Source: Bacteroidia bacterium (lineage in GTDB: Bacteria > Bacteroidota > Bacteroidia > J057). From it: 36,963 nucleotides of DNA. This document shows positions 11,827 through 31,955 of this stretch, one piece after another (the stretch's first letter is position 1; every line of letters starts with the position of its first letter). The stretch spans positions 1 through 36,963 of the forward strand of contig JAUIGE010000053.1 of assembly GCA_030430205.1 (NCBI GenBank), given 5' to 3'. The notes under the pieces were generated by a model. The model ran no database searches and was not told the DNA's origin. It worked only from the letters and a program-made list of their open reading frames with translations. The position numbers were made by a program, and so were the translations under genes.

Positions 11827-13074
11827 ATGAGTACCATCAAAGCAATTTGGGAGAGAATCCGCAGAGACGAATCCGTCAATTATCCTACCTTTCAAATAAA
11901 GGCGGGCAATATCCTGGACAAAAACGATAATGTGGGAAAACTTATCATTCCCCAAGGAAATTATTTTTCCATCTCTTTAACTGAGCAGTTTTTGAAGTAT
12001 AAAAGAGAATACTGGAATGAATATATCCCCATGACCTTATTTTTTGCCGAATTCATCTATGGAGGCAAAAGGCAGGATTTTCCATTTGTCGTAGGTCCGG
12101 AATTGCTCAAAAAGATTGAGCAAATGGAAGGGAATGAAAGTGTTAGATACAAAAACACCCGGGTCATAGGTCCTACGCCCTACAATGGCGACAATGTGGC
12201 ACTTTTTACAGCTCTCTTTCGCATCAAGACAAAAGACTGGGCTGCTCAGGCCATCAACTTACTGGAAACAGTAGCCAATTCTTTTGATGCTTCTAAACTG
12301 ACAAATTACTTAAGTATTGCAGAGCCATTACTTACAGGTATTGAAGGCTTTTTCAATATGGGAAAACAAATTCAGTTTAGGCTTGGACAGCGGGATGAAT
12401 ACAGAGACTCAACTGTTCAAAATACCAACCCCTTCAGAAGTGGATATTGGGTTATGCTCAGAAAAGACCAAAATGAAGTAAATCAGGACCATTTTTGGGT
12501 AAAAGATAATACATTGTGTTACGGCACGGATCCAGAAAACCTTGTCTTTTTCCAGGAGTGCGATTACACCCTTTTTGAGATCAGTGCATTAGAAAAAAGG
12601 GGAGATTATCAGACCTTTGATTTTCACAGACATTGGGAAAGAGCCAAAGAAGCTGTAATCCAAAAAAACCTAAAAGAAGCTGATCGCCAGTTTCAAAGCT
12701 TAACGGCTAAACTTTACTTAAGCAATGACATCATTGATTCACAAAAGAATCAGTTACAAACTATGTACCTGACCCGCTTTAATCAATTGAAAGACAAATT
12801 CCTTCCGAAAACACTCAATAATAATTTGCAGGAATTCGCCACAAATGGGCTTGAATCGGCTACTACCACATCTAAATGGAATAGCCTGGATAAGAAAATA
12901 ATAGACCTCGCAGCCCACTTTTCCAAAGAAACAGCGAAAGAATTTGAGGCCAACAATTTTGAGATAAATGAATCATTTATTGAAAAGGAGTTGGACAGTG
13001 AATTCTTAAACAAGGCTGAAATAGTAAATATGAAAAGCAGTCAATTGGAGAGGCTTCAGGAGAGCTTCAGGTAG
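11827..13074 (+). CDS. Conserved-looking soluble protein of unknown function (415 residues)
   Basis: I do not recognise this protein. It has no signal peptide and no transmembrane helix, and is expected in the cytoplasm. The N-terminal half (about 1-180) looks like a compact alpha/beta domain (KLIIPQGNYFSISLTEQFL, DFPFVVGPELLKKIE, RVIGPTPYNGDNVALFTALF). A middle beta-like section (about 205-255) contains GYWVMLRKDQNEVNQDHFWV. The last 150 residues are helical and charged, probably a coiled coil (KEADRQFQSLTAKLYL, ETAKEFEANNFEINESF). It follows the two-component/peroxidase cluster on the same strand, behind a terminator-like hairpin, and converges with the ClpX-like gene (5 bases between ends). 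The N-terminal domain with a helical tail could suit a scaffold or effector-associated role; this is only a guess. Confidence 0.8.
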   Translation: MSTIKAIWERIRRDESVNYPTFQIKAGNILDKNDNVGKLIIPQGNYFSISLTEQFLKYKREYWNEYIPMTLFFAEFIYGGKRQDFPFVVGPELLKKIEQMEGNESVRYKNTRVIGPTPYNGDNVALFTALFRIKTKDWAAQAINLLETVANSFDASKLTNYLSIAEPLLTGIEGFFNMGKQIQFRLGQRDEYRDSTVQNTNPFRSGYWVMLRKDQNEVNQDHFWVKDNTLCYGTDPENLVFFQECDYTLFEISALEKRGDYQTFDFHRHWERAKEAVIQKNLKEADRQFQSLTAKLYLSNDIIDSQKNQLQTMYLTRFNQLKDKFLPKTLNNNLQEFATNGLESATTTSKWNSLDKKIIDLAAHFSKETAKEFEANNFEINESFIEKELDSEFLNKAEIVNMKSSQLERLQESFR

Positions 13075-13079
13075 CCCCC

Positions 13080-14228
13080 CTACCCCCGCCGATAGCTCAG
13101 CTTCCAGTCAATCTTCCCATCCTTCATCTTCAAAATCACCTTGCTCACCTTCCGATCGGTAGAGTAAGCCTCAAAAAGCGCTTCTTCGATAAACTCCAGC
13201 AGCGCAAAGCGCACCCCACGAGCGCCTGTCTCGCGCTCCAGAGCGTCCTCCACGATGCGGTCCATGACGGGCTCATCTATCGCGAGTTTGATGTTTTGGA
13301 GTGCGAGTTCTTTCTCGTATTTCTGGAGCGTGCTGTCGAGCAGGATCTCTTTGAGGGTATCTTTTGAAAGGGCTTCAAAAGGCAGGATGCGGGAGAATCT
13401 CCCGATGAGCTCCGGCATGATGCCGTAGTTTTCAAAGGTGGTGACCTTTTGCAGATCGTCGCGGTGGAGCGAACGCGCAATGCGCTTTTCCTCGCCATCG
13501 GCGGCGGTTTTCTCTGCTTTGGCCATGCCAAAGCCTATTCCTTCTTTGGCGGCTTTCTTTTTTTTCACGGCCTTGGGAAGGCCGGAGAAAGCGCCGCAGG
13601 CGATAAATGCCACATCGGATGTACCGAAGGTCTCCCGCCTGGCCCAGGCCGAATGCGAAAGTTCCGTTGGAACATCTACATCTGCTGTCTCTAACATCTT
13701 GAGCAGCTCGCGCTGCACGCCCAGGCCGCTGACGTCCTTGGTGGTGCCCTGACCGGAGAAAACAGCGTTGTTTTTCCCCGAGGCCAGTTTGTCAAATTCA
13801 TCTATGCAGATGATGCCGATGGAGGCGAGCTCGGGATTGCCGTCGGCGGCATTCATCAGACGCGTGAGCATGGAGACGGCATCCTGCCCGACATAGCCGG
13901 TCTCCGAATAGGAGGTAATGTCGATGATGACAGTGGGCAAATGCAGAACGGTTCTGAAAAGCAATTCCACCAAAAAAGTCTTGCCCGAACCCGTCGGCCC
14001 TACCAACAGATAGTTCTCCTTGGCAGGCAGCTCATGGCGCGATACGCCATCGAGGTAGATGCGCTTCAGCCGGTTGACATGGCGATAAGCCATGAGACTG
14101 AGCGCTTTGCGCGCCTGCTCCTGCCCTTTGAAGCCGCAGGCTTCGATACGCTTCACCATCTCAGCAGGTGTAAAATGGGGCATGGAAGAGAGAAACTGTT
14201 GGATCTGAGACGTTTTGGCGTTCGGCAT
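13080..14228 (-). CDS. ClpX-like AAA+ unfoldase lacking the zinc-binding domain
   Basis: This 382-residue protein is a ClpX-type HCLR-clade AAA+ ATPase. Visible are Walker A GPTGSGKT (77-84), the pore loop GYVG (111-114), Walker B IICIDEFDKLA (139-149), a sensor-1 region FIACGAFSGL, the IGF loop that docks on ClpP (231-233, EGIGFGMAKAEK), an arginine finger in PELIGRF (R277) and sensor-2 TGARGVR (R337). Canonical ClpX is about 410-430 residues with an N-terminal four-Cys zinc domain; here the first 70 residues have a single Cys and no zinc domain. It is therefore probably a paralogue that can feed ClpP but uses different adaptors. It lies 9 bases downstream of an ATP-grasp gene and is almost certainly co-transcribed with it. 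Confidence 0.9.
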   Translation of the reverse strand: MPNAKTSQIQQFLSSMPHFTPAEMVKRIEACGFKGQEQARKALSLMAYRHVNRLKRIYLDGVSRHELPAKENYLLVGPTGSGKTFLVELLFRTVLHLPTVIIDITSYSETGYVGQDAVSMLTRLMNAADGNPELASIGIICIDEFDKLASGKNNAVFSGQGTTKDVSGLGVQRELLKMLETADVDVPTELSHSAWARRETFGTSDVAFIACGAFSGLPKAVKKKKAAKEGIGFGMAKAEKTAADGEEKRIARSLHRDDLQKVTTFENYGIMPELIGRFSRILPFEALSKDTLKEILLDSTLQKYEKELALQNIKLAIDEPVMDRIVEDALERETGARGVRFALLEFIEEALFEAYSTDRKVSKVILKMKDGKIDWKLSYRRG

Positions 14229-14237
14229 AAAAAGATT

Positions 14238-15440
14238 TTATTGTTTGTCAGGCGCCGGCATACTCATGAAAAAGTCCTGGTAAAAGCGCTTGGCATAGTT
14301 GTCCAGCAATTCCACCACACGCTCAGGACTGGAGGCCTTAACGATGATGCCTGCATGTTGTTTTTTGTTCATTTTCCACACGATCTCGGGATCGTTGTAG
14401 GAAGTCATATCAGGCCACTCCTGCTGGGCAAGGGAAATGATGATGCCAGCATAGGCACCTTCACCTTTGGGTGCTTTGTACTTCTTGCCTGGGGCAAGGG
14501 TTTCAATTTTGGCCCACTCTGCCCAGAGGTTGATGCCGCTGGCGGCTTCTACCATCTCGGCGATGTTGGCACCGCCAACACGGGAAGCCGTTTCGATGAA
14601 ATAGTATTTCCCATCCTCATGCGCACGCAGAAACTCGGTATGCGTAGCACCGCTTTTCATGCCAAAACCTTTGATAACGCCTTCGTTATGCTTGATCAGG
14701 TCTTTTGCGATGGGGTCATTGTTGTCCAATGTATAGGTGCGGAAAACGCCTCCTTCATGAGAAACCTCGAAAGGCGGGCTCATGTATTTGCTTACGCGAA
14801 CGAAGGTCACTTTGCCTTCATAGGTGATGGCATCAATATGGTAGACATCGCCGGGGATGAATTGCTCCAGCACAAAGCGGCTTCTGTCGTCACCGAGCTC
14901 ATTGAGGCGCTTCCAAAGGGTATCTGCATCATGAAATTTCTTGATGCCATGCGCTGAAGCCTGCGAACGGGGCTTGAGGATCCAGGGCGCAGGTATGCGC
15001 GCGATAAAATCATTGACAGCCTCATCGTTGAAGGGAGCCACAAAGGCAGGATTGGGAACTTGGGTGTCATCCGCCATCATGCGCATGGCAAGTTTATCGC
15101 GAAAATAGCGGGCACGGGTGTCGCCCATGCCTGGGATGCGAAACTGCTCGCGGATACGCGCTGCGCGCTCTACATCAAAATCGTCCAAAGCAGCGATTTT
15201 GTCTATTTTTTCCTTTTTCAACAAGCCGCTGATTCCTTTCATCACAAACTCCATATCCCATGCATCCTTGTCCTGGGGTACAAGCAGGATCTGGTCTATG
15301 TCCTCACGAGGCCATTCGGCATCCCGAAATTCTTCAGAAGTGAGCAGTAAAACGCGCCATCCGGATGCCTTACAGGCACGGATAAAATCGATCCCTTTGA
15401 AGTAGGATGCAACACAGAGTATAGTGTGAGTAGAATTCAT
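14238..15440 (-). CDS. ATP-grasp domain ligase-like protein
   Basis: This 400-residue cytoplasmic protein has a Rossmann-like N-terminal domain (TILCVASYFKGIDFIRAC) and an ATP-grasp domain (about 110-310). Landmarks are a nucleotide-binding Lys at 156 (APWILKPRSQASAHG), FVLEQFIPGDVYHIDA (E192), the metal-binding region THTEFL (E269) and FIETASRVGGANI (E283, R287). The family forms acyl-phosphate intermediates and ligates carboxylates to amines or thiols, e.g. dipeptide ligases and carboxylases. The substrate cannot be read from sequence. The C-terminal 80 residues form an extra domain seen in several ATP-grasp peptide ligases. ATG 15440 (MNSTHTILCV) is preferred over the longer in-frame extension to 15551, which would run into the divergent sigma-factor promoter. 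It is the first gene of a two-gene operon with the ClpX-like unfoldase. Confidence 0.88.
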   Translation of the reverse strand: MNSTHTILCVASYFKGIDFIRACKASGWRVLLLTSEEFRDAEWPREDIDQILLVPQDKDAWDMEFVMKGISGLLKKEKIDKIAALDDFDVERAARIREQFRIPGMGDTRARYFRDKLAMRMMADDTQVPNPAFVAPFNDEAVNDFIARIPAPWILKPRSQASAHGIKKFHDADTLWKRLNELGDDRSRFVLEQFIPGDVYHIDAITYEGKVTFVRVSKYMSPPFEVSHEGGVFRTYTLDNNDPIAKDLIKHNEGVIKGFGMKSGATHTEFLRAHEDGKYYFIETASRVGGANIAEMVEAASGINLWAEWAKIETLAPGKKYKAPKGEGAYAGIIISLAQQEWPDMTSYNDPEIVWKMNKKQHAGIIVKASSPERVVELLDNYAKRFYQDFFMSMPAPDKQ

Positions 15441-15524
15441 TTTCTTTTTTTGTATAAAAATTTGCCCCAATGAAAATCGCGCGCAAAGGTAGGAAATACT
15501 TTTTCTAAGTTGAAAGATTTTGTT

Positions 15525-15532
15525 CACCTTTG
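15525..15532 (+). promoter_or_regulatory. -7-like element CACCTTTG immediately before the sigma-factor start
   Basis: CACCTTTG matches the Bacteroidota -7 consensus TAnnTTTG in all fixed positions except the first T. A start site about 4-7 bases downstream would place the mRNA 5' end at or next to the GTG at 15539, giving a leaderless or near-leaderless message. A well-placed -33 TTG is not obvious. Confidence 0.4.
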
Positions 15533-15538
15533 CAACAA

Positions 15539-16102
15539 GTGGGTAACACATCTCAACATACCAATATAGAGGAGCAGATTATACAACTGCTCCATGCGCG
15601 CAATAAGGAGGCGATACAGCTTATTTATGCAAACTATGCCAGGGTTTTGTTGGGAACCATCACCCGTGTCGTCGGGGATCCTGCCACAGGAGAGGATGTT
15701 TTTCAGGAGGCCATGGTGAAGATATGGAAAAATGGCCCCGCTTATGACAGCTCAAAAGGGCGATTATTTACCTGGATGATGCGTATTTGTCGAAACCAAG
15801 CCATAGATACGCTCCGTTCCAAAGGATATAAATCACAACAAAAAATCCAGTCTACAGAAAACATCGTAGTTAGTGAGGATTCAGGATTATCCTATTCATT
15901 TAATCCTGATTTGATTGGAATAAAAGAAAAACTGGATAGCCTGGATGCCAGCTATCGGGAAGTGATAGAAGTTGTTTATTACAAAGGCTATACACATGCC
16001 GAAGCTGCCGAAGCGCTCAACCTGCCCCTGGGCACGGTGAAGTCTCGCGTCCGCATCGCTATCCGTGAATTAAGAACCATATTAGGCATTGAACTTAGTT
16101 GA
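15539..16102 (+). CDS. ECF-type RNA polymerase sigma factor
   Basis: This protein of about 187 residues has sigma region 2 (AIQLIYANYARVLLGTITRV, EDVFQEAMVKIWKN, KGRLFTWMMRICRNQAIDTL) and region 4 (LDSLDASYREVIEVVYYKGY, HAEAAEALNLPLGTVKSRVR), joined by a short linker. The organisation fits SigK-like ECF factors controlled by an RskA-type anti-sigma. No ATG is available before region 2. Candidate starts are GTG 15539, chosen here, and TTG 15530, which overlaps the -7-like element. It is divergent from the ATP-grasp gene and overlaps the anti-sigma gene by 14 bases, implying translational coupling. The following DUF4331-TPR-TonB genes on the same strand are its likely regulon. Confidence 0.93.
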   Translation: MGNTSQHTNIEEQIIQLLHARNKEAIQLIYANYARVLLGTITRVVGDPATGEDVFQEAMVKIWKNGPAYDSSKGRLFTWMMRICRNQAIDTLRSKGYKSQQKIQSTENIVVSEDSGLSYSFNPDLIGIKEKLDSLDASYREVIEVVYYKGYTHAEAAEALNLPLGTVKSRVRIAIRELRTILGIELS

Positions 16103-16892
16103 TTACATATCGTCCGGCGTGCTAGAGCTCTACGCTAGCAGCATGCTCTCCCCAGAGGAGATGCAGGAGGTAGAGCGCATGTGCGATCAACATCCTGAAG
16201 TGGCTGCTGAACTGCTCGCCATAGAGGATGCCCTGGCAGTTCAGGCCTCTGTCAATTACAGAGAGCCGAGCCCGGATTTGTTGGCCCATATCATGGACCG
16301 CATTGAGGAAGAGGAGAAGAAAGAGGAGGAAAAAGAAGAAGAAAAGAAAGAAGCTGAAATAAGACCTCTTTTTACCGAAAAAAGCTCCTCCAGGCTCAGG
16401 TGGTGGCTAGCGGCGGCTTCTGTCATTTTGATTTGCAGCCTTGTTGCCAACTTCTACCTCTTTAAGCAGCTGGATCAGGTGGAAACACAATTGGCCATCT
16501 TAGAAACAGAAAACCAAAGCATAGCCCAGCAATATGAAGGCATGCGCACCAACTACCAGGTGCTGACAGATCCTTCCTTCTCGACCATCCACATGGGCGG
16601 ACAAGCCGCCAGCCCCGAATCCTACGCTTCCGCGGTCTATGATGCCGCAAGCGGCAAGCTCTTCTTCAACACCGGCAACCTGCCGGAAACCGAAGCTGAC
16701 AAGCAATTTCAGCTCTGGGCCATCGTAGAGGGCGTCGGGCCCGTAAGCGCAGGCGTCTTTGACAAAAGCAGCGACCTGCTCCAAATGCCTGCCATCGAAG
16801 GCAAGGTCGTAGCTTTCGCTGTCACGCTTGAAAAGCGCGGCGGAGTGGAAAGCCCTACTTTGGAGCAGATGTATGTTTTGGGGGAGGTGTAG
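16089..16892 (+). CDS. RskA-family anti-sigma factor
   Basis: This 267-residue single-pass membrane protein has an N-terminal zinc-finger-like/ASD region (about 1-70, YISSGVLELYASSMLSPEEM). A very acidic-basic linker follows (RIEEEEKKEEEKEEEKKE, about 71-88), then a transmembrane helix (about 104-125) and a periplasmic RskA domain (about 130-267, with KQFQLWAIVEGVGPVSAGVF). It should hold the co-encoded sigma factor inactive until a signal is received. The start is a TTG at 16089, inside the sigma gene; it gives the family-typical short lead before YISSG and there is no ATG. The linker is encoded by an uninterrupted purine run (16305-16353). Confidence 0.92.
   Translation: MNLVDYISSGVLELYASSMLSPEEMQEVERMCDQHPEVAAELLAIEDALAVQASVNYREPSPDLLAHIMDRIEEEEKKEEEKEEEKKEAEIRPLFTEKSSSRLRWWLAAASVILICSLVANFYLFKQLDQVETQLAILETENQSIAQQYEGMRTNYQVLTDPSFSTIHMGGQAASPESYASAVYDAASGKLFFNTGNLPETEADKQFQLWAIVEGVGPVSAGVFDKSSDLLQMPAIEGKVVAFAVTLEKRGGVESPTLEQMYVLGEV
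16305..16353 (+). repeat. 49-base polypurine tract inside the anti-sigma gene
   Basis: Every base from 16305 to 16353 is A or G; the run encodes the Glu/Lys-rich linker between the cytoplasmic sigma-binding part and the membrane helix. Such tracts can slip during replication or form triplex structures. Slippage by multiples of three would alter linker length without frameshift. Confidence 0.7.
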
Positions 16893-16902
16893 CGGAGCTA
16901 GA

Positions 16903-16944
16903 AGAGAGAATAGAGACCAGAGATTAGAGACTGTAAACTGAAGA
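16903..16944 (+). repeat. Degenerate 7-bp array (NNAGAGA)
   Basis: Successive heptamers AGAGAGA, ATAGAGA, CCAGAGA and TTAGAGA (16903-16930) are followed by CTGTAAA and CTGAAGA. The period is exactly seven although the first two bases change in every unit. It starts shortly after the anti-sigma stop codon. Confidence 0.6.
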
Positions 16945-17100
16945 CTATTTTATGTTGCCAGGTAATAGACTGTGAAAAGGTCTGTTCTCTGGCTTTTTGC
17001 ATTTGAGCTTAAGGGCCGGATTACGCGCAGGCTCCCACCATCAGGAAATCCCGCCCCCCAGGACAAAAGTGCCTTGCACTTCGAAAAACCCGTCCCGCCT

Positions 17101-17142
17101 CTCTACTCTCTACTCTCTACTCTCTACTCTCTACTCTCTACT
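17101..17142 (+). repeat. CTCTACT heptamer tandem array, six units
   Basis: Six perfect consecutive copies of CTCTACT occupy 17101-17142, followed by an imperfect CTCTGCC and preceded by a partial CCT. It is a pyrimidine-rich simple repeat about 100 bases before the first DUF4331 gene, where copy number changes could alter promoter spacing. Confidence 0.85.
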
Positions 17143-17244
17143 CTCTGCCTCCCCAAATTTTTTTTCCCATCCCGAAATCCAAAACCCAGCCCGGCTCCGT
17201 AAGTAGGTCGATTTTAAACTTTAACCTTTAATCCCAACAAAATC

Positions 17245-18993
17245 GTGAAGAACTTAACTCTTACCCCATCCATCCTCGCTCGCATGATGCGGCTTTGGCT
17301 GATTGGGGCGATGATGGCAGGCAGCCTATCTTTGATGGCATCCAGCCACAGGGAAGCGCCGCTCATCGCCAACGACCCGCTTGCGGACAATACCGATGTG
17401 TATGCCTTCCGCTCGCCCGACGATCCCAACACTGTGACCCTCATCGCTTGCTACATTCCTGCGGAATTGCCTTTCGGTGGACCCAACTACCATTCTTTTG
17501 GCGAAAACATCCGCTATGAAATCCACATCGACAACGATGTCACCACCACCGGAGATGACATCATCTACCGCGCCACTTTTACCCGTGTAAATGAAGATCC
17601 CAGCACTTTTTTCAATATCCGTCTGGGAATGGAAAACCTCAAAAACACCTATACGCTTCAGCGTAGCATGGACGGTGGTGCGACCTGGCAGACGATTGTC
17701 AGCAATGGCATTGTGCCTCCCGCCAATATCGGTGCACGCTCCATCGAAAGCGCCGTAGGCCTGAACACGACCTATGAAAGCCTGATCACACAGGCGATCG
17801 CTACTGCTTCGACCGGTGAAAAAGTTTTTTGTGGTCCAGCTGACGATCCCTTCTTCGTAGATCTGGGTGGAATCTTTGACCTGGGCGATGCCCCCCGCAA
17901 AAGCAATGGCGTCACCCGCGACGGCCTGGCCCGCTACAATACCCACGCTATCGCGATTCAGATCCCGATCTCTACTTTGCAAAAAGATGGCAAAAGCGTC
18001 AGCCAGGCTGGCAACATACTGGATGGCGATTTTGTGATCGGCGTCTGGGCTTCTGCCAGCAGGCCGAGCATGCAAACCCTTAACGGTGATGGAACGATGA
18101 GCACTTCGGGCAATTGGGTGCAGGTATCACGCCTGGGCATGCCTTTGACCAATGAGGCGGTCATTCCCATCGGTGCAAAAGATGAGTGGAACAACCGCAC
18201 ACCTTATAATGAGAATCCTGCTCACTACGAATACTTTTACAACCCTGAGCTGGCGCTCTATATGGACGACGCGCTTTTCGGCGGTGCCGTGCCTGCTTTT
18301 GAGGCTTTGCGCATACAGCGCAACTCACTTCAGGGATTTGACTTTGGCTATGGCCAGGACGGATTGTATGGATTGAAAGGCAATCCTGCCGTGGCAGGAA
18401 CGGCATTGGATGATGCCATCTTTGGCACATTGCTTCTGCCAGGACCTGGCAAAGCGCGTTCAGTTGACCTGTGGCCCATCTTCCACACCGGTGTTCCCAA
18501 TTTCCCTCCCTATCAGCTTGTTACAGGGAAAAATGGCAACCCGCTCGCAAAAGGAAAACCTTTTATCAACAACTTCCTGCCTAATGGCGGCGATATGCTC
18601 CGCCTGAACATGGCTACGCCTGTCACAAGCAGAAAAGACCCGAACTTCAGTTCGTTGGGTATCATCCAGGCAGCTGTCCTGGGCATCCTCGATCCCAATT
18701 TTAATACCAATGACAGCATACAGTGGATTCCCAATATGGATGGATTTCCCAATGGCCGCAGGCTGGAAGATGATGTGACCCGCATCGAATTGCAGGCAGT
18801 GGGGGGCATAGCCCTGGCAGCGATCGGTCTTTGGTACGACGACTATGATGCAGCTGATCCCAATGCATCTCCCGTGACCAACCAATTGCTCAATGTGTTG
18901 CAATACTCTACCGGTGTTGAGAAAAATGATACCACCTTCAAAAGTAGCTTCCCTTATGTTCAGGCTCCATGGAGGGGCACAGAAGTGAAGTAG
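17245..18993 (+). CDS. DUF4331 family exported protein (copy 1, no T9SS tail)
   Basis: This 582-residue protein belongs to DUF4331, recognisable from SSHREAPLI right after the signal peptide, DPLADNTDVYAFRSPDDP, GPNYHSFGENIRYEIHIDND, DPFFVDLGGIFDLGD and AHYEYFYNPELALYMDDALF. The function is not established. The start is probably GTG 17245, whose context AAAATCGTGAA mirrors AAAATCATGAA of the second copy; ATG 17284 or 17287 would also leave a good signal peptide. It ends at PWRGTEVK, where the second copy continues into a sorting domain, so it should stay periplasmic or be differently localised. It is followed by the paralogue after 37 bases and is part of the sigma/anti-sigma-linked cluster. 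Confidence 0.92.
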   Translation: MKNLTLTPSILARMMRLWLIGAMMAGSLSLMASSHREAPLIANDPLADNTDVYAFRSPDDPNTVTLIACYIPAELPFGGPNYHSFGENIRYEIHIDNDVTTTGDDIIYRATFTRVNEDPSTFFNIRLGMENLKNTYTLQRSMDGGATWQTIVSNGIVPPANIGARSIESAVGLNTTYESLITQAIATASTGEKVFCGPADDPFFVDLGGIFDLGDAPRKSNGVTRDGLARYNTHAIAIQIPISTLQKDGKSVSQAGNILDGDFVIGVWASASRPSMQTLNGDGTMSTSGNWVQVSRLGMPLTNEAVIPIGAKDEWNNRTPYNENPAHYEYFYNPELALYMDDALFGGAVPAFEALRIQRNSLQGFDFGYGQDGLYGLKGNPAVAGTALDDAIFGTLLLPGPGKARSVDLWPIFHTGVPNFPPYQLVTGKNGNPLAKGKPFINNFLPNGGDMLRLNMATPVTSRKDPNFSSLGIIQAAVLGILDPNFNTNDSIQWIPNMDGFPNGRRLEDDVTRIELQAVGGIALAAIGLWYDDYDAADPNASPVTNQLLNVLQYSTGVEKNDTTFKSSFPYVQAPWRGTEVK

Positions 18994-19030
18994 ACCTTTC
19001 CTCTCTTTAACAAAATCAAAAAATAAAATC

Positions 19031-21118
19031 ATGAAAACCCAATCCATCTTTATGGGGGTATGGAAATACTTTGCGCTCATTTTCCTCCTGAGCATGACAG
19101 CAAGTAGCTTCGCCTCCAGCCACAGAGAAGCTCCGCTCATCGCGGATGATCCCCTGGCAGACAATACCGATCTCTATGCTTTTCGCTCTCCTGACGATCC
19201 CAGCACCATCACGATCATAGCTAACTATGTGCCACTACAGCTTCCCCACGGTGGACCCAACTACTACCAGTTTGGTGAAAATGTACGCTACGAGATCCAC
19301 ATTGACAATGATGTGTCAACCCCTGGAGACGATATTATTTACCGTTTCACTTTCAAAAAGACCATCGAAGATTCCACGACTTTCTTCAATATCCGTTTGG
19401 GAAAAGAAAATCTGAAGACGACCTACACCCTTGAAATCAGCAGAGATGGAGGCAAAAAGTTTTATACCGCTTTGCGGAATGGTGTGGTCCCCCCTTACAA
19501 TATCGGCCCTCGTTCTATCAGCTCTGCTGTAGGCCTGGAGCAAAACTATGAGAAGCTCTTTCAATCGGCTATCGGCAGGACCAAAGGCGCCGATCAGGTA
19601 TTTTGCGGTCCTGCGGACGATCCCTTCTTTGTAGACCTGGCAGGCATATTTGACCTGGGCGATGCCCCTCGTCAGCAGGGCCAGGCCCGTGATGGAGTTG
19701 CCTGCAAGAATGTCAGCGTGATCGCGCTGAAGATTCCGATCAGCTTTCTCCAGAAAGAAAACAAATCTGTCAGCCAGGCTGCCAATATCCTAGATGGTGA
19801 CTTCGTCATCGGCGTATGGGCCTCAGCCAGCCGTCCCCAAATGCGGACACTGTCCGCAGCCGGAACGCCCGCTTATAGCGGGCAGTGGGTGCAGGTGTCA
19901 CGCCTGGGCATGCCTTTGACCAATGAAGCTGTCATCCCCATCGGTGACAAAGACGAGTGGAATTCCCGCACGCCTTACAATGAAAACCCCGCTCATTATG
20001 AGTATTTCTACAACCCTGAGCTGGCCTTGTATATGGACGATGCGCTTTTTGGCACCGCTGTTCCTGCCCTGGCTCCTCTTCGTATCCAACGCAATGCCTT
20101 ACAATCCTTTGACTTTGGCAATGGCCAGGATGGTCTCTATGGCCTGAAAGGCAATCCTGCACTGGCGGGCACCGCCCTCGATGATGCCATATTTGGCACC
20201 CTGCTGCTGCCGGGTCCCGGCAAGCCGCGCTCTGTGGACCTCTGGCCTGCCTTTCATACAGGCGTTCCCAACTTCCCGCCCTATCAATTGGCGACGGGCA
20301 AAAATGGCAACCCACTTGCCGTAGGCAAGCCTTTTATCAACAACTTCCTGCCCAATGGCGGCGATATGTTGCGCCTGAACATGGCCGTGCCTGTGACGCC
20401 GAGAAATGATCCTGCTTTCAGCACCTTAGGCCTGATTCAGGCAGCGGTATTGGGCCTCACAAGCCCGACTTATGCCAATCCCCATTTGCAGTGGATTCCC
20501 AATATGGATGGATTTCCGAATGGCCGCAGGCTCGAAGATGATGTGACACGTATTGAGCTTCAGGCAGTGAGTGGTATAGTCCTGGCAGCCATCGGGCTGT
20601 GGTATGACGACTACACCGCAGGTGCTGCCAACCCTGTGACACAGGACCTGGTCAATGTCCTCACCTACTCTACCGGTGTAGAGCGCAATGACACCAGCTT
20701 CAGAACAAGCTTTCCTTATGTACAACTTCCCTGGTCAGGCACAGGCAAATGTGGCGGTATGGAAGTGCCTTATACAGCTCCTGCGGTCCTGAATCCTACG
20801 CCTATGGCCAACAAGCCTAAAACACGCGCCAGAACGGCCAACAGCCTTGAAAATGAAAACGGCCTCACAGTCAGCAATTTTTATCCCAACCCAGCCAGCA
20901 GCACGAGTCAAATAGACATCAGCTCCCTGGCAGAAGGAAACTTTAGCTGGGAGCTATATGACCGCATGGGCAGAACGGTGAAAAGCGGTGAAATCACCCT
21001 CTCCGGTGGCAATATGAACCAGCTTCGTATCTCTGTAGACGATTTATCGAGGGGCATCTATTACTTCCGATTGGATCACCCGAAACAGCTTGAAAGCCAG
21101 ATGTTAGTAGTTAAGTAG
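19031..21118 (+). CDS. DUF4331 family secreted protein (copy 2, with T9SS sorting domain)
   Basis: This 695-residue paralogue of the preceding gene has a signal peptide (about 1-28) followed by SSHREAPLIADDPLADNTD and the same ordered blocks through FPYVQLPWSGT. It then adds a Pro/Asn-rich linker (PYTAPAVLNPTPMANKPK) and a type A T9SS sorting domain (about 615-695, SNFYPNPASSTSQ and GIYYFRLDHPKQLESQMLVV). It is therefore predicted to be exported to the cell surface while copy 1 is not. Protein similarity to copy 1 is very high in the central region, with near-identical stretches around IPIG-KDEWN and YNENPAHYEYFYNPELALYM. At DNA level a 29-base identical tract occurs at 18127-18155 and 19898-19926, consistent with tandem duplication or gene conversion. 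Biochemical role unknown. Confidence 0.93.
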   Translation: MKTQSIFMGVWKYFALIFLLSMTASSFASSHREAPLIADDPLADNTDLYAFRSPDDPSTITIIANYVPLQLPHGGPNYYQFGENVRYEIHIDNDVSTPGDDIIYRFTFKKTIEDSTTFFNIRLGKENLKTTYTLEISRDGGKKFYTALRNGVVPPYNIGPRSISSAVGLEQNYEKLFQSAIGRTKGADQVFCGPADDPFFVDLAGIFDLGDAPRQQGQARDGVACKNVSVIALKIPISFLQKENKSVSQAANILDGDFVIGVWASASRPQMRTLSAAGTPAYSGQWVQVSRLGMPLTNEAVIPIGDKDEWNSRTPYNENPAHYEYFYNPELALYMDDALFGTAVPALAPLRIQRNALQSFDFGNGQDGLYGLKGNPALAGTALDDAIFGTLLLPGPGKPRSVDLWPAFHTGVPNFPPYQLATGKNGNPLAVGKPFINNFLPNGGDMLRLNMAVPVTPRNDPAFSTLGLIQAAVLGLTSPTYANPHLQWIPNMDGFPNGRRLEDDVTRIELQAVSGIVLAAIGLWYDDYTAGAANPVTQDLVNVLTYSTGVERNDTSFRTSFPYVQLPWSGTGKCGGMEVPYTAPAVLNPTPMANKPKTRARTANSLENENGLTVSNFYPNPASSTSQIDISSLAEGNFSWELYDRMGRTVKSGEITLSGGNMNQLRISVDDLSRGIYYFRLDHPKQLESQMLVVK

Positions 21119-29468: not shown

Positions 29469-31955
29469 CTAGCGAAGATACAATTTACGCGAGGCCATGC
29501 CTGCTTCAGTCTGTATCACCACGACATACATCCCCCCGGGCAAATGCCCGAAATCAAATTTTTGGGTTTTGTTCGCAAAGCTCACATCCTCCAGGCTCAG
29601 GACCTGCTGTCCCAGCCCATTGACCAGGCTCAGCCTGGCGTGGTGACTGGCATAAACCAGTTTTATTTCTACCTGCCCGGTAGAAGGGTTGGGATAAACC
29701 GAAAAATTCGTTTGAGTAACCTCCTCCGGCTCTAAGCCCGTCAGCACGGTATTGGCATAGCTGATGACGCTGGAAGCCACGATCAGGTGCGGATTGAAGC
29801 CGTCATTGCAATCGGGGCAGGTGGTTCCCGACACACAATTGGGATGATTGGGGTGGCAAAAATCTATGTAGTTGGGGTCCAGGACATAGTCCAGTTCTAC
29901 TTTTCCATTTGCTACAAAAGGCGTCAGGTTGTAGTCATGCCAGGGCGAAATCGCCCCAGGACAAAAACCTGCACGGTTGAAGTACCAGGTACCATTTTGG
30001 GGCTGACAGCCATCGGGATTGGGGTTACAGGTCATCCAATTGGCATGAGTGAATGCCAGGCTGCCATCTGCCCAGATGCTGTGGGTGGTATTGAAAAACT
30101 CCGCAGCATTGTTGCTGTTGTTGTCTCCCCATCCATGCCCTGAAGCTACAAGCTTCAGCTTAGCGGCGAATGCATTCGCCGGAAATGTGACCTCCTGTGC
30201 GGGCACAGGCTGCTGGTTGGCGATATCGCCAAAGTCAAAAGCCTCATGCCACAAAGGCGTGATGACGCTGTATAGCGCATTGGGACGGCCTGCTTTGTAA
30301 TTCAGATCCAAATTGTATTCGAAGCCTTCACCAAATGTCGTATAGTCAATCTGAAAAGTAACTTTCCCCTGCAATGCTGACATAAAGTCTGTCAAATCAA
30401 TCTGATGCGAACAAGCCACACCATAAGAGGTGATGTAGCGGATGATTTCCACCCAATTACCCTCATGCGTTTTTACCTTCATGTGCATTACCCTGTCCCA
30501 GGGATCACAACCGCCAGCAGGACAGACCACATTCATGGTGGCATTGATCTGATTATATGCCCCCAGATAGGAGGGCAATTCTGCATCAAATTGTGCCAAT
30601 GGAATGGAAGCATTCATCAACACATCTGAGAAAGCGTCTACCAGGGTATCCGAGACCGTATTGACAATATTGATAGAAACAGTTTCGGTAGCTTTGGCGC
30701 CAAAGTTATTGTAGGCATGCACATGCAGGCTGTAGCTGCCATAAGAGGGCGGAGCCCACCAGCCTGTATAGTGTTCATTGCCCCAGTCGTGGGCCGAAAC
30801 GATATTGCCATTTATCTCAAACTCTACTTTTGATACGGAAAGCAATTCCGGAAAATCGGTATTGACGATGGCTGCAAGCTGAATCTTATTCAGCGAAGGC
30901 ACGATCACATCCCCTGCCAGGGGATTGCGCAGGTCAATATTGGGAACGGTGGCCATGGGGTCCACCACTTCAAAGCTTTTGACAACCGGGTTGGCCGGGT
31001 TCCAGGAGGCATCTCCTGGCTGGCTGGCCTCTACCACCACAGTGCCTGCTGTGCCGTTGAGGGTCAGGGTATCATTGCTGACGCTTGCAGGGCCTGAAAG
31101 GACCGCAAACTGTACAGGCAACATAGAGGTGGCGCTTGCCAGCATTTTAAAAGGCGCATCTGAGATGAGTTTGTTGTCTATGTCATCAAAAGAAATGGCT
31201 TGAAAGCCCGTTTGAAGCGTTCCCAGAAAATTGGAGGTAGAGCCCGTAAGGGAAAAGCCGATCAGGCTGGCATCACGCGCACTGCCGCCCACCTCAGAAA
31301 TCAATTTGGTGATGGAGGAATTATTTCCTCCAGGCTGGCCCTGGTTCATTTTGTAATACAAGAGCAGGTTGGGCTCACTGCCTGTCAGCTCATTCGTCAT
31401 CATATCCTGAAGATCCATGACATTCAAGGCTTTGTCCCAAACCGAAACCTCATCGGCCCGCCCCCCAAAGTAGAAGTTGATGCTCGCAAGTATGCTCCTT
31501 CCGATGGTAAAAGGAATATTATTGTCCGATAAAGTCCCCGAAGCAGCAGCAGAGCCTTTTGAAACGCCATCAATAAATAAGGTAATGGAACTGCCATTGT
31601 ACACCCAGGCCACATGCTGCCATACGCCTGGCAAAATCGTGAAATTAGGTCCGACAAACTGATGTAAACCTGTATTGGTTTCGAGGCGACATTCGAGCGT
31701 ACCGTTGGCGAGTTGTATCAGGTAAAAGCCATTACCTGCCCCCCGAAATCCCATCATGCCCTGTCCGTAGGCCAGTTGATCGGTATAAAACCAGCCTGCC
31801 ATGGAGAAAGCGGTCTTTCCGGTAAGGAATTGAGATGCGCCGTCCAGCCGCACATAGTCGTCCTGACGATCAAAATGCAGGTATTGATTGGACTGGGCGA
31901 AAGTACTGAGCGAAAAGCTGAGGAGGAGGAGAAAAAGTAGGTAGTTGATTTTCAT
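29469..31955 (-). CDS. Secreted PNGase F-like glycosidase with LamG domain and T9SS tail
   Basis: This 828-residue protein has a signal peptide (about 1-20, ending TFAQ) and a LamG/concanavalin-like domain (about 22-215, QYLHFDRQDDYVRLDGASQF, WQHVAWVYNGSSITLFIDGV). Linker and Ig-like regions follow, then a peptide-N-glycosidase F domain (about 455-735). PNGase F landmarks are GGCDPWDRVMHMKVKTHEGN (D487, equivalent of the catalytic Asp), NNAAEFFNTTHSIWADG (E619, equivalent of the catalytic-site Glu near CAEWC) and WYFNRAGFCPGAISPWHDY. The C-terminal 75 residues are a T9SS sorting domain (FSVYPNPSTGQVEIK). PNGase F removes N-glycans by hydrolysing the Asn amide. It is the third gene of the SusC-SusD operon, 27 bases after SusD. 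Confidence 0.92.
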   Translation of the reverse strand: MKINYLLFLLLLSFSLSTFAQSNQYLHFDRQDDYVRLDGASQFLTGKTAFSMAGWFYTDQLAYGQGMMGFRGAGNGFYLIQLANGTLECRLETNTGLHQFVGPNFTILPGVWQHVAWVYNGSSITLFIDGVSKGSAAASGTLSDNNIPFTIGRSILASINFYFGGRADEVSVWDKALNVMDLQDMMTNELTGSEPNLLLYYKMNQGQPGGNNSSITKLISEVGGSARDASLIGFSLTGSTSNFLGTLQTGFQAISFDDIDNKLISDAPFKMLASATSMLPVQFAVLSGPASVSNDTLTLNGTAGTVVVEASQPGDASWNPANPVVKSFEVVDPMATVPNIDLRNPLAGDVIVPSLNKIQLAAIVNTDFPELLSVSKVEFEINGNIVSAHDWGNEHYTGWWAPPSYGSYSLHVHAYNNFGAKATETVSINIVNTVSDTLVDAFSDVLMNASIPLAQFDAELPSYLGAYNQINATMNVVCPAGGCDPWDRVMHMKVKTHEGNWVEIIRYITSYGVACSHQIDLTDFMSALQGKVTFQIDYTTFGEGFEYNLDLNYKAGRPNALYSVITPLWHEAFDFGDIANQQPVPAQEVTFPANAFAAKLKLVASGHGWGDNNSNNAAEFFNTTHSIWADGSLAFTHANWMTCNPNPDGCQPQNGTWYFNRAGFCPGAISPWHDYNLTPFVANGKVELDYVLDPNYIDFCHPNHPNCVSGTTCPDCNDGFNPHLIVASSVISYANTVLTGLEPEEVTQTNFSVYPNPSTGQVEIKLVYASHHARLSLVNGLGQQVLSLEDVSFANKTQKFDFGHLPGGMYVVVIQTEAGMASRKLYLR

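Follow-up and report, generated by a model that had tools for sequence, protein, structure and literature searches.

Two adjacent genes on the minus strand

The window, by which we mean the whole stretch of 36,963 nucleotides that was analysed, lies on contig G000:C67 of a 7.24-Mb host genome in 80 contigs. It carries two neighboring genes on the minus strand. The upstream gene (14238..15440) encodes a 400-aa ATP-grasp ligase of the L-amino-acid-ligase type (PF13535), and its open frame extends out to an ATG at 15551. The downstream gene (13080..14228) encodes a 382-aa ClpX-like AAA+ unfoldase without a zinc-binding domain (PF07724/PF10431). As the initial annotation had stated, the ligase stop and the ClpX-like ATG are separated by nine bases, and this short gap on one strand suggests that the two genes are probably co-transcribed in the host. 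The sequence TACCTTTG (15484..15491, minus strand), a candidate promoter element read from the sequence, resembles the Bacteroidota -7 promoter element, TAnnTTTG, and could possibly mark the start of the ligase/ClpX-like transcript; a sigma-70 scan returned no minus-strand site at these positions. On the plus strand, a gene for a 415-aa protein (11827-13074) converges on the ClpX-like gene, with 5 bases between them; searches of Pfam, NCBIfam, PADLOC, and PHROGs at the thresholds applied gave no hit for this protein. Farther along, a minus-strand gene (29469-31955) adjoins genes for a SusD-like protein and a TonB receptor; its product is secreted and combines laminin-G-like with peptide-N-glycosidase F C-terminal domains. 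The SusD-like and Por_Secre_tail domains that occur in the window, together with the Saprospiraceae relative L036 described below, point to Bacteroidota.

The two Pfam domains identify the 382-aa protein as a Clp-type AAA+ ATPase. Its best NCBIfam matches are two ClpX models, and both scores fall under the respective cut-offs (TIGR00382, 213.3 versus 370.75 bits; PRK05342, 243.3 versus 359 bits). The second-nearest model is HslU, also an AAA+ unfoldase of the Clp/Hsp100 type that belongs to a two-part protease, but here the score is only 91.3 bits against a cut-off of 362.45, and the host has a separate HslU-type gene. A phmmer comparison with a solved ClpX gave E = 6.3e-50, so the likeness to ClpX is not due to chance. 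We also built an AlphaFold model from a 5-row alignment (mean pLDDT 66.6), which is uninformative on the pore-2 and IGF loops because its confidence drops below 50 across these regions. Foldseek searches with this predicted model listed 50 matches, all of them ClpX or ClpXP entries with a TM score of about 0.45, which confirms, as far as the model goes, the family of the protein and not its loops.

GC content (0.551) and GC3 (0.687) of the ClpX-like gene exceed those of all other genes among the 23 measured in the window; the values for the ligase gene are 0.506 and 0.576. The composition of the ClpX-like gene is compatible with a recent acquisition and is no proof of one. Comparisons with phage and plasmid records gave no sign of such an origin, as the best 20 of 67 and the best 20 of 71 records were 35-38% identical, the level of ordinary ClpX. 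In viral-contig loci, of which at least 80 were kept, identity to the ClpX-like protein was at most 38% among the matches listed. PHROGs returned a ClpX-like family whose function is given there as unknown, and an anti-phage library search of the window returned one weak partial match.

A search for a second, full-length clpX, which had been proposed together with the initial annotation, located the host's canonical gene on G000:C69. It is full-length, carries the zinc domain (the one zf-C4_ClpX match in the host genome), and adjoins clpP. Its product and the ClpX-like protein share about 33-35% identity. Because this zinc-domain clpX lies elsewhere in the genome, the ClpX-like gene is a paralog and not the housekeeping ClpX. 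The clpP gene beside canonical clpX is convincing (E 2.9e-77); a second ClpP-domain match elsewhere in the host, within a 609-aa frame, is weak (E 9.2e-5), although over the family cut-off.

Motor, docking loop, and entrance in a ClpX-like clade

The ClpX-like protein belongs to a clade with 11 members known here. The ten others (G396, L036-L039, G510, G511, G522, G546, and G854; L036 is a Saprospiraceae relative) are 45.5-55.0% identical to the window protein, and clade members share 30.7-35.2% identity with Escherichia coli ClpX. The motifs of the motor and of the docking loop are present in the same order as in canonical E. coli ClpX: Walker A, GPTGSGKT (residues 77-84; 13977..14000); the pore-1 loop, GYVG (residues 111-114; 13887..13898); Walker B, IDEFDK (residues 142-147; 13788..13805); the IGF loop core, a predicted ClpP contact (residues 231-233; 13530..13538); and, by alignment to the E. 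coli protein, arginine finger R277 (13398..13400) and sensor-2 R337 (13218..13220), all on the minus strand. Walker A, the Walker B acid, the arginine finger, and the sensor-2 arginine align in all 11 members. The pore-1 loop reads GYVG in seven of them and GYIG in four, and the docking loop follows (I/L)G(F/Y) in 11/11 (IGF in nine, LGY and IGY in one each).

Substrate choice by ClpX is thought to reside in the zinc domain, the RKH loops, and the pore loops. These are the parts in which the clade differs from canonical ClpX. The paired-cysteine zinc pattern, found in 7/7 ClpX compared, is absent from the window protein and from 10/10 relatives (0/11 members). The description of the protein as a ClpX-type unfoldase that lacks the zinc-binding domain and keeps the GYVG and IGF loops was thus correct. 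Two changes that it had missed are more telling. First, the segment in place of the RKH loop (residues 184-203; 13620..13679, minus strand) contains no RKH motif, which occurs in 0/11 clade members versus 6/7 ClpX, the exception being the Butyribacter protein L040. Second, the pore-2 loop (residues 153-166; 13731..13772, minus strand) is remodelled; it carries five extra residues in 11/11 members and in 0/7 ClpX, and it reads TTKDV in the clade instead of the ITRDV of ClpX. Six further residues are inserted before the arginine-finger motif, again in 11/11 members and 0/7 ClpX. In all, 27 diagnostic positions separate the clade.

A phylogenetic tree split ten clade members from six canonical ClpX proteins, mostly of the same genomes, with a branch support of 100/100; G854 brings the clade to 11. 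When HslU was added, the canonical ClpX set was weakly supported (80/57) and long branches were flagged, so that the tree fixes no root and places the clade neither inside nor outside canonical ClpX.

The clade is sparse in Bacteroidota, Planctomycetota, and Spirochaetota. We counted at least 1 carrier among 395 genomes of the host phylum (the host being the only one), at least 5 among 343 genomes of the planctomycete seed's phylum, and at least 2 among 344 of the spirochaete seed's phylum, with the seeds counted; these frequencies are lower bounds, as four first-look candidates per genome were scored in the 395-genome phylum and five in the other two. Two of the 22 genomes of the host order are carriers. 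L036-L039 were found by a search needing exact peptide words. A zinc-domain clpX was also present in 6/6 carriers examined, namely the host and 5/5 others, out of 11 carriers; the frame in G484 is 169 aa long and cut near a contig end.

Clustering of ten carrier regions revealed no conserved partner of the ClpX-like gene, a coarse negative because the gene picker performed poorly in two regions (L083 was unpicked, and frames were GC-rich). The one shared neighbor family, encoded upstream at a distance of two or three frames, is confined to the closely related L038 and L039. The region of G854 entered the search for the ligase only. Other neighbors are unrelated and include an apolipoprotein N-acyltransferase and an SbcC-type protein (G511), PhyH (G546), an M28 peptidase (L037), and a class-V aminotransferase (L038).

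The ligase and the conservation of the gene pair

The ligase matches ATP-grasp_4 (PF13535) with 31.9 bits, over the cut-off of 27, and no NCBIfam equivalog passes its cut-off for this protein. Among solved structures, its closest relatives are two L-amino acid ligases, 4wd3 (E 2e-20) and 3vot (E 9.9e-11). They share the ATP-grasp fold with it, and K, E, and R of the ATP/metal site align; the alignment is partial, covering ligase residues 60-312. Across 33/33 sequences, 61 positions are identical, including K156, E192, E283, and R287. Of the 395 genomes from the phylum, 80 encode a relative (E <= 1e-20; weakest listed 3.8e-94).

The initial annotation had linked ligase and unfoldase in a tag-and-degrade pathway and had suggested a survey of their co-occurrence. 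We found no ClpX-like gene beside any of 29 other ATP-grasp loci (the best-scoring ones, searched by tblastn with 1.5-kb flanks); 28 of these are informative, as L019 has only 243 bases downstream of the ligase. Nor did any of 23 wider ligase regions of 10-18 kb contain a ClpX-like relative, counting L070, where the ligase frame itself was unpicked. Twelve further genomes of the host's family were compared; three have the ligase, and one, G396, which is none of these three, has the ClpX-like gene. The ligase carriers include a same-genus genome (63% identical) in which no ClpX-like relative was found. Conversely, the ligase family is absent from the ten other ClpX-like carriers: four had no ATP-grasp match at E <= 1e-6, and six had weak generic matches, with identities of 22-29% and a best E of 7.2e-18. 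In G484, three generic L-amino-acid-ligase-like ATP-grasp matches lie in a row (C333:45045-51205), 11-17 kb from the ClpX-like gene. Because it is absent from the other ligase loci and carriers examined, the pair is seen only in the host genome. In one open-licence literature collection we found no paper on an ATP-grasp/ClpX pair, which is not proof that none exists; one article mentions the two families separately, in jumbo phages (PMC7824862).

The ligase has neighbors of its own in other genomes. The gene picker recovered the ligase frame in 22 regions; nine of them contain a PF00756-type esterase, and 13 contain neither an esterase nor an M17 aminopeptidase. Both enzymes lie within 3.5 kb of the ligase in 7/22 regions, and in six regions (L047, L048, L057, L061, L068, and L069) the genes are ordered esterase-aminopeptidase-ligase on one strand; in the same-genus genome G395, esterase and aminopeptidase are on the strand opposite the ligase. 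These names come from Pfam scans of two examples each and from clustering for the rest. In Bacteroidota, the recurrent run of esterase, M17 aminopeptidase, and ligase resembles a small-peptide cluster of an undescribed kind. The window ligase is probably a separate enzyme of the L-amino-acid-ligase type that makes a small peptide or an aminoacyl amide. Divergent from it, at 15530-21118 on the plus strand, lie genes for an ECF sigma factor, an RskA-type anti-sigma protein, and two DUF4331 proteins; a related sigma/anti-sigma pair is found near the ligase in L061 (genome G064).

Proposed role of the ClpX-like protein

In our reading, to which we assign a probability of roughly 0.6, the ClpX-like protein would be a stand-alone, horizontally scattered ClpX paralog that serves the housekeeping ClpP with other clients, and the ligase would be independent of it. 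Given its ATPase motifs, arginine finger, and sensor-2 residue, the protein may form a hexameric ring, whose tyrosine pore-1 loop would grip and thread protein chains. The IGF loop could then dock the ring onto the ClpP also used by canonical ClpX, a shared partner being suggested because only one convincing clpP was found. Because all 11 members have lost the zinc domain and the RKH motif and have a longer pore-2 loop, the ring would be expected to refuse ssrA-tagged substrates and those delivered by zinc-domain adaptors and to take a different client set. We infer a working motor that may still dock on ClpP but would choose other substrates. The ligase would make its small peptide or aminoacyl amide independently of the unfoldase, and the adjacency of the two genes could be a lineage-specific rearrangement that probably leaves them co-transcribed with no obligate shared pathway.

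Several observations count against this reading. Residue V274 of E. coli ClpX matters for ClpP binding (PMC7112951), and its equivalent is lysine in the window protein, but it is proline even in the host's canonical ClpX. Two clade members deviate from IGF. Furthermore, the span from IGF to arginine finger is 37 residues here, compared with 27-30 in six of seven ClpX proteins and 38 in one. As to independence from the ligase, the nine-base gap on one strand still hints at co-transcription in the host. The ring might instead unfold or activate particular proteins without degrading them, independently of ClpP, and the changed entrance loops and the two deviating members are in agreement with this alternative. 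Mitochondrial ClpX provides a precedent, as it is described as activating the haem-biosynthesis enzyme ALAS by partial unfolding (PMC7077987). However, conservation of (I/L)G(F/Y) in 11/11 members, with the exact IGF in 9/11, would be unexpected if docking were useless, and we regard such a remodeller as unlikely, if worth keeping in mind.

Far less probable is the tag-and-degrade pathway, in which the ligase would add amino acids to proteins and a dedicated unfoldase would feed these to ClpP. Two points speak for it: the adjacency on one strand with a 9-base gap, and the altered entrance of the unfoldase, a change that a new recognition code would call for. Nevertheless, the ligase family usually occurs without the unfoldase, its closest relatives of known structure link free amino acids and not proteins, and its company in 7/22 regions is an M17 aminopeptidase and an esterase. 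We rejected the pair as a tag-and-degrade system on conservation, the ground that the initial annotation had itself named for a refutation; what stands of that annotation is the zinc-domain-less, non-housekeeping unfoldase, whereas the functional link to the ligase is not supported. A housekeeping ClpX that lost a domain, or a decaying gene, would account for the NCBIfam scores under the ClpX cut-offs, but this is the most improbable reading. We rejected the housekeeping role given the full-length zinc-domain clpX in the host, and the open frame with all ATPase motifs kept and the clade signature, common to 10 genomes of other genera or phyla, make decay very unlikely.

The weight of our results lies on the unfoldase clade as a paralogous lineage; the ligase/unfoldase pair carries little. 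Since Myxococcus xanthus ClpX3 (MXAN_2743) has been published, an extra ClpX without zinc-binding domain and RKH motif is already known. ClpX3 is reported as isolated in the genome (PMC11423568), as lacking the N-domain and RKH, and as weakening growth at 36 °C when deleted. Compared by this description only, ClpX3 shares both absences with the clade. However, its published identity to E. coli ClpX, 43.5%, exceeds the 30.7-35.2% of the clade, so ClpX3 is probably not of the same clade, even if the identity measures may differ. We tentatively propose that the clade may form a third lineage next to ClpX and HslU that has so far gone unrecognised; it would share ClpP, respond to degradation signals of its own through the altered entrance, and have spread between phyla.

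By keeping the motor and the docking loop while swapping the selector parts, the clade would amount to a natural experiment on the recognition code, and its presence beside a normal ClpX could show how two unfoldases share one ClpP. A ClpX-type protein of Butyribacter intestini (L040, 5674-7128) displays an intermediate combination, with the zinc-finger cysteines kept and RKH absent.
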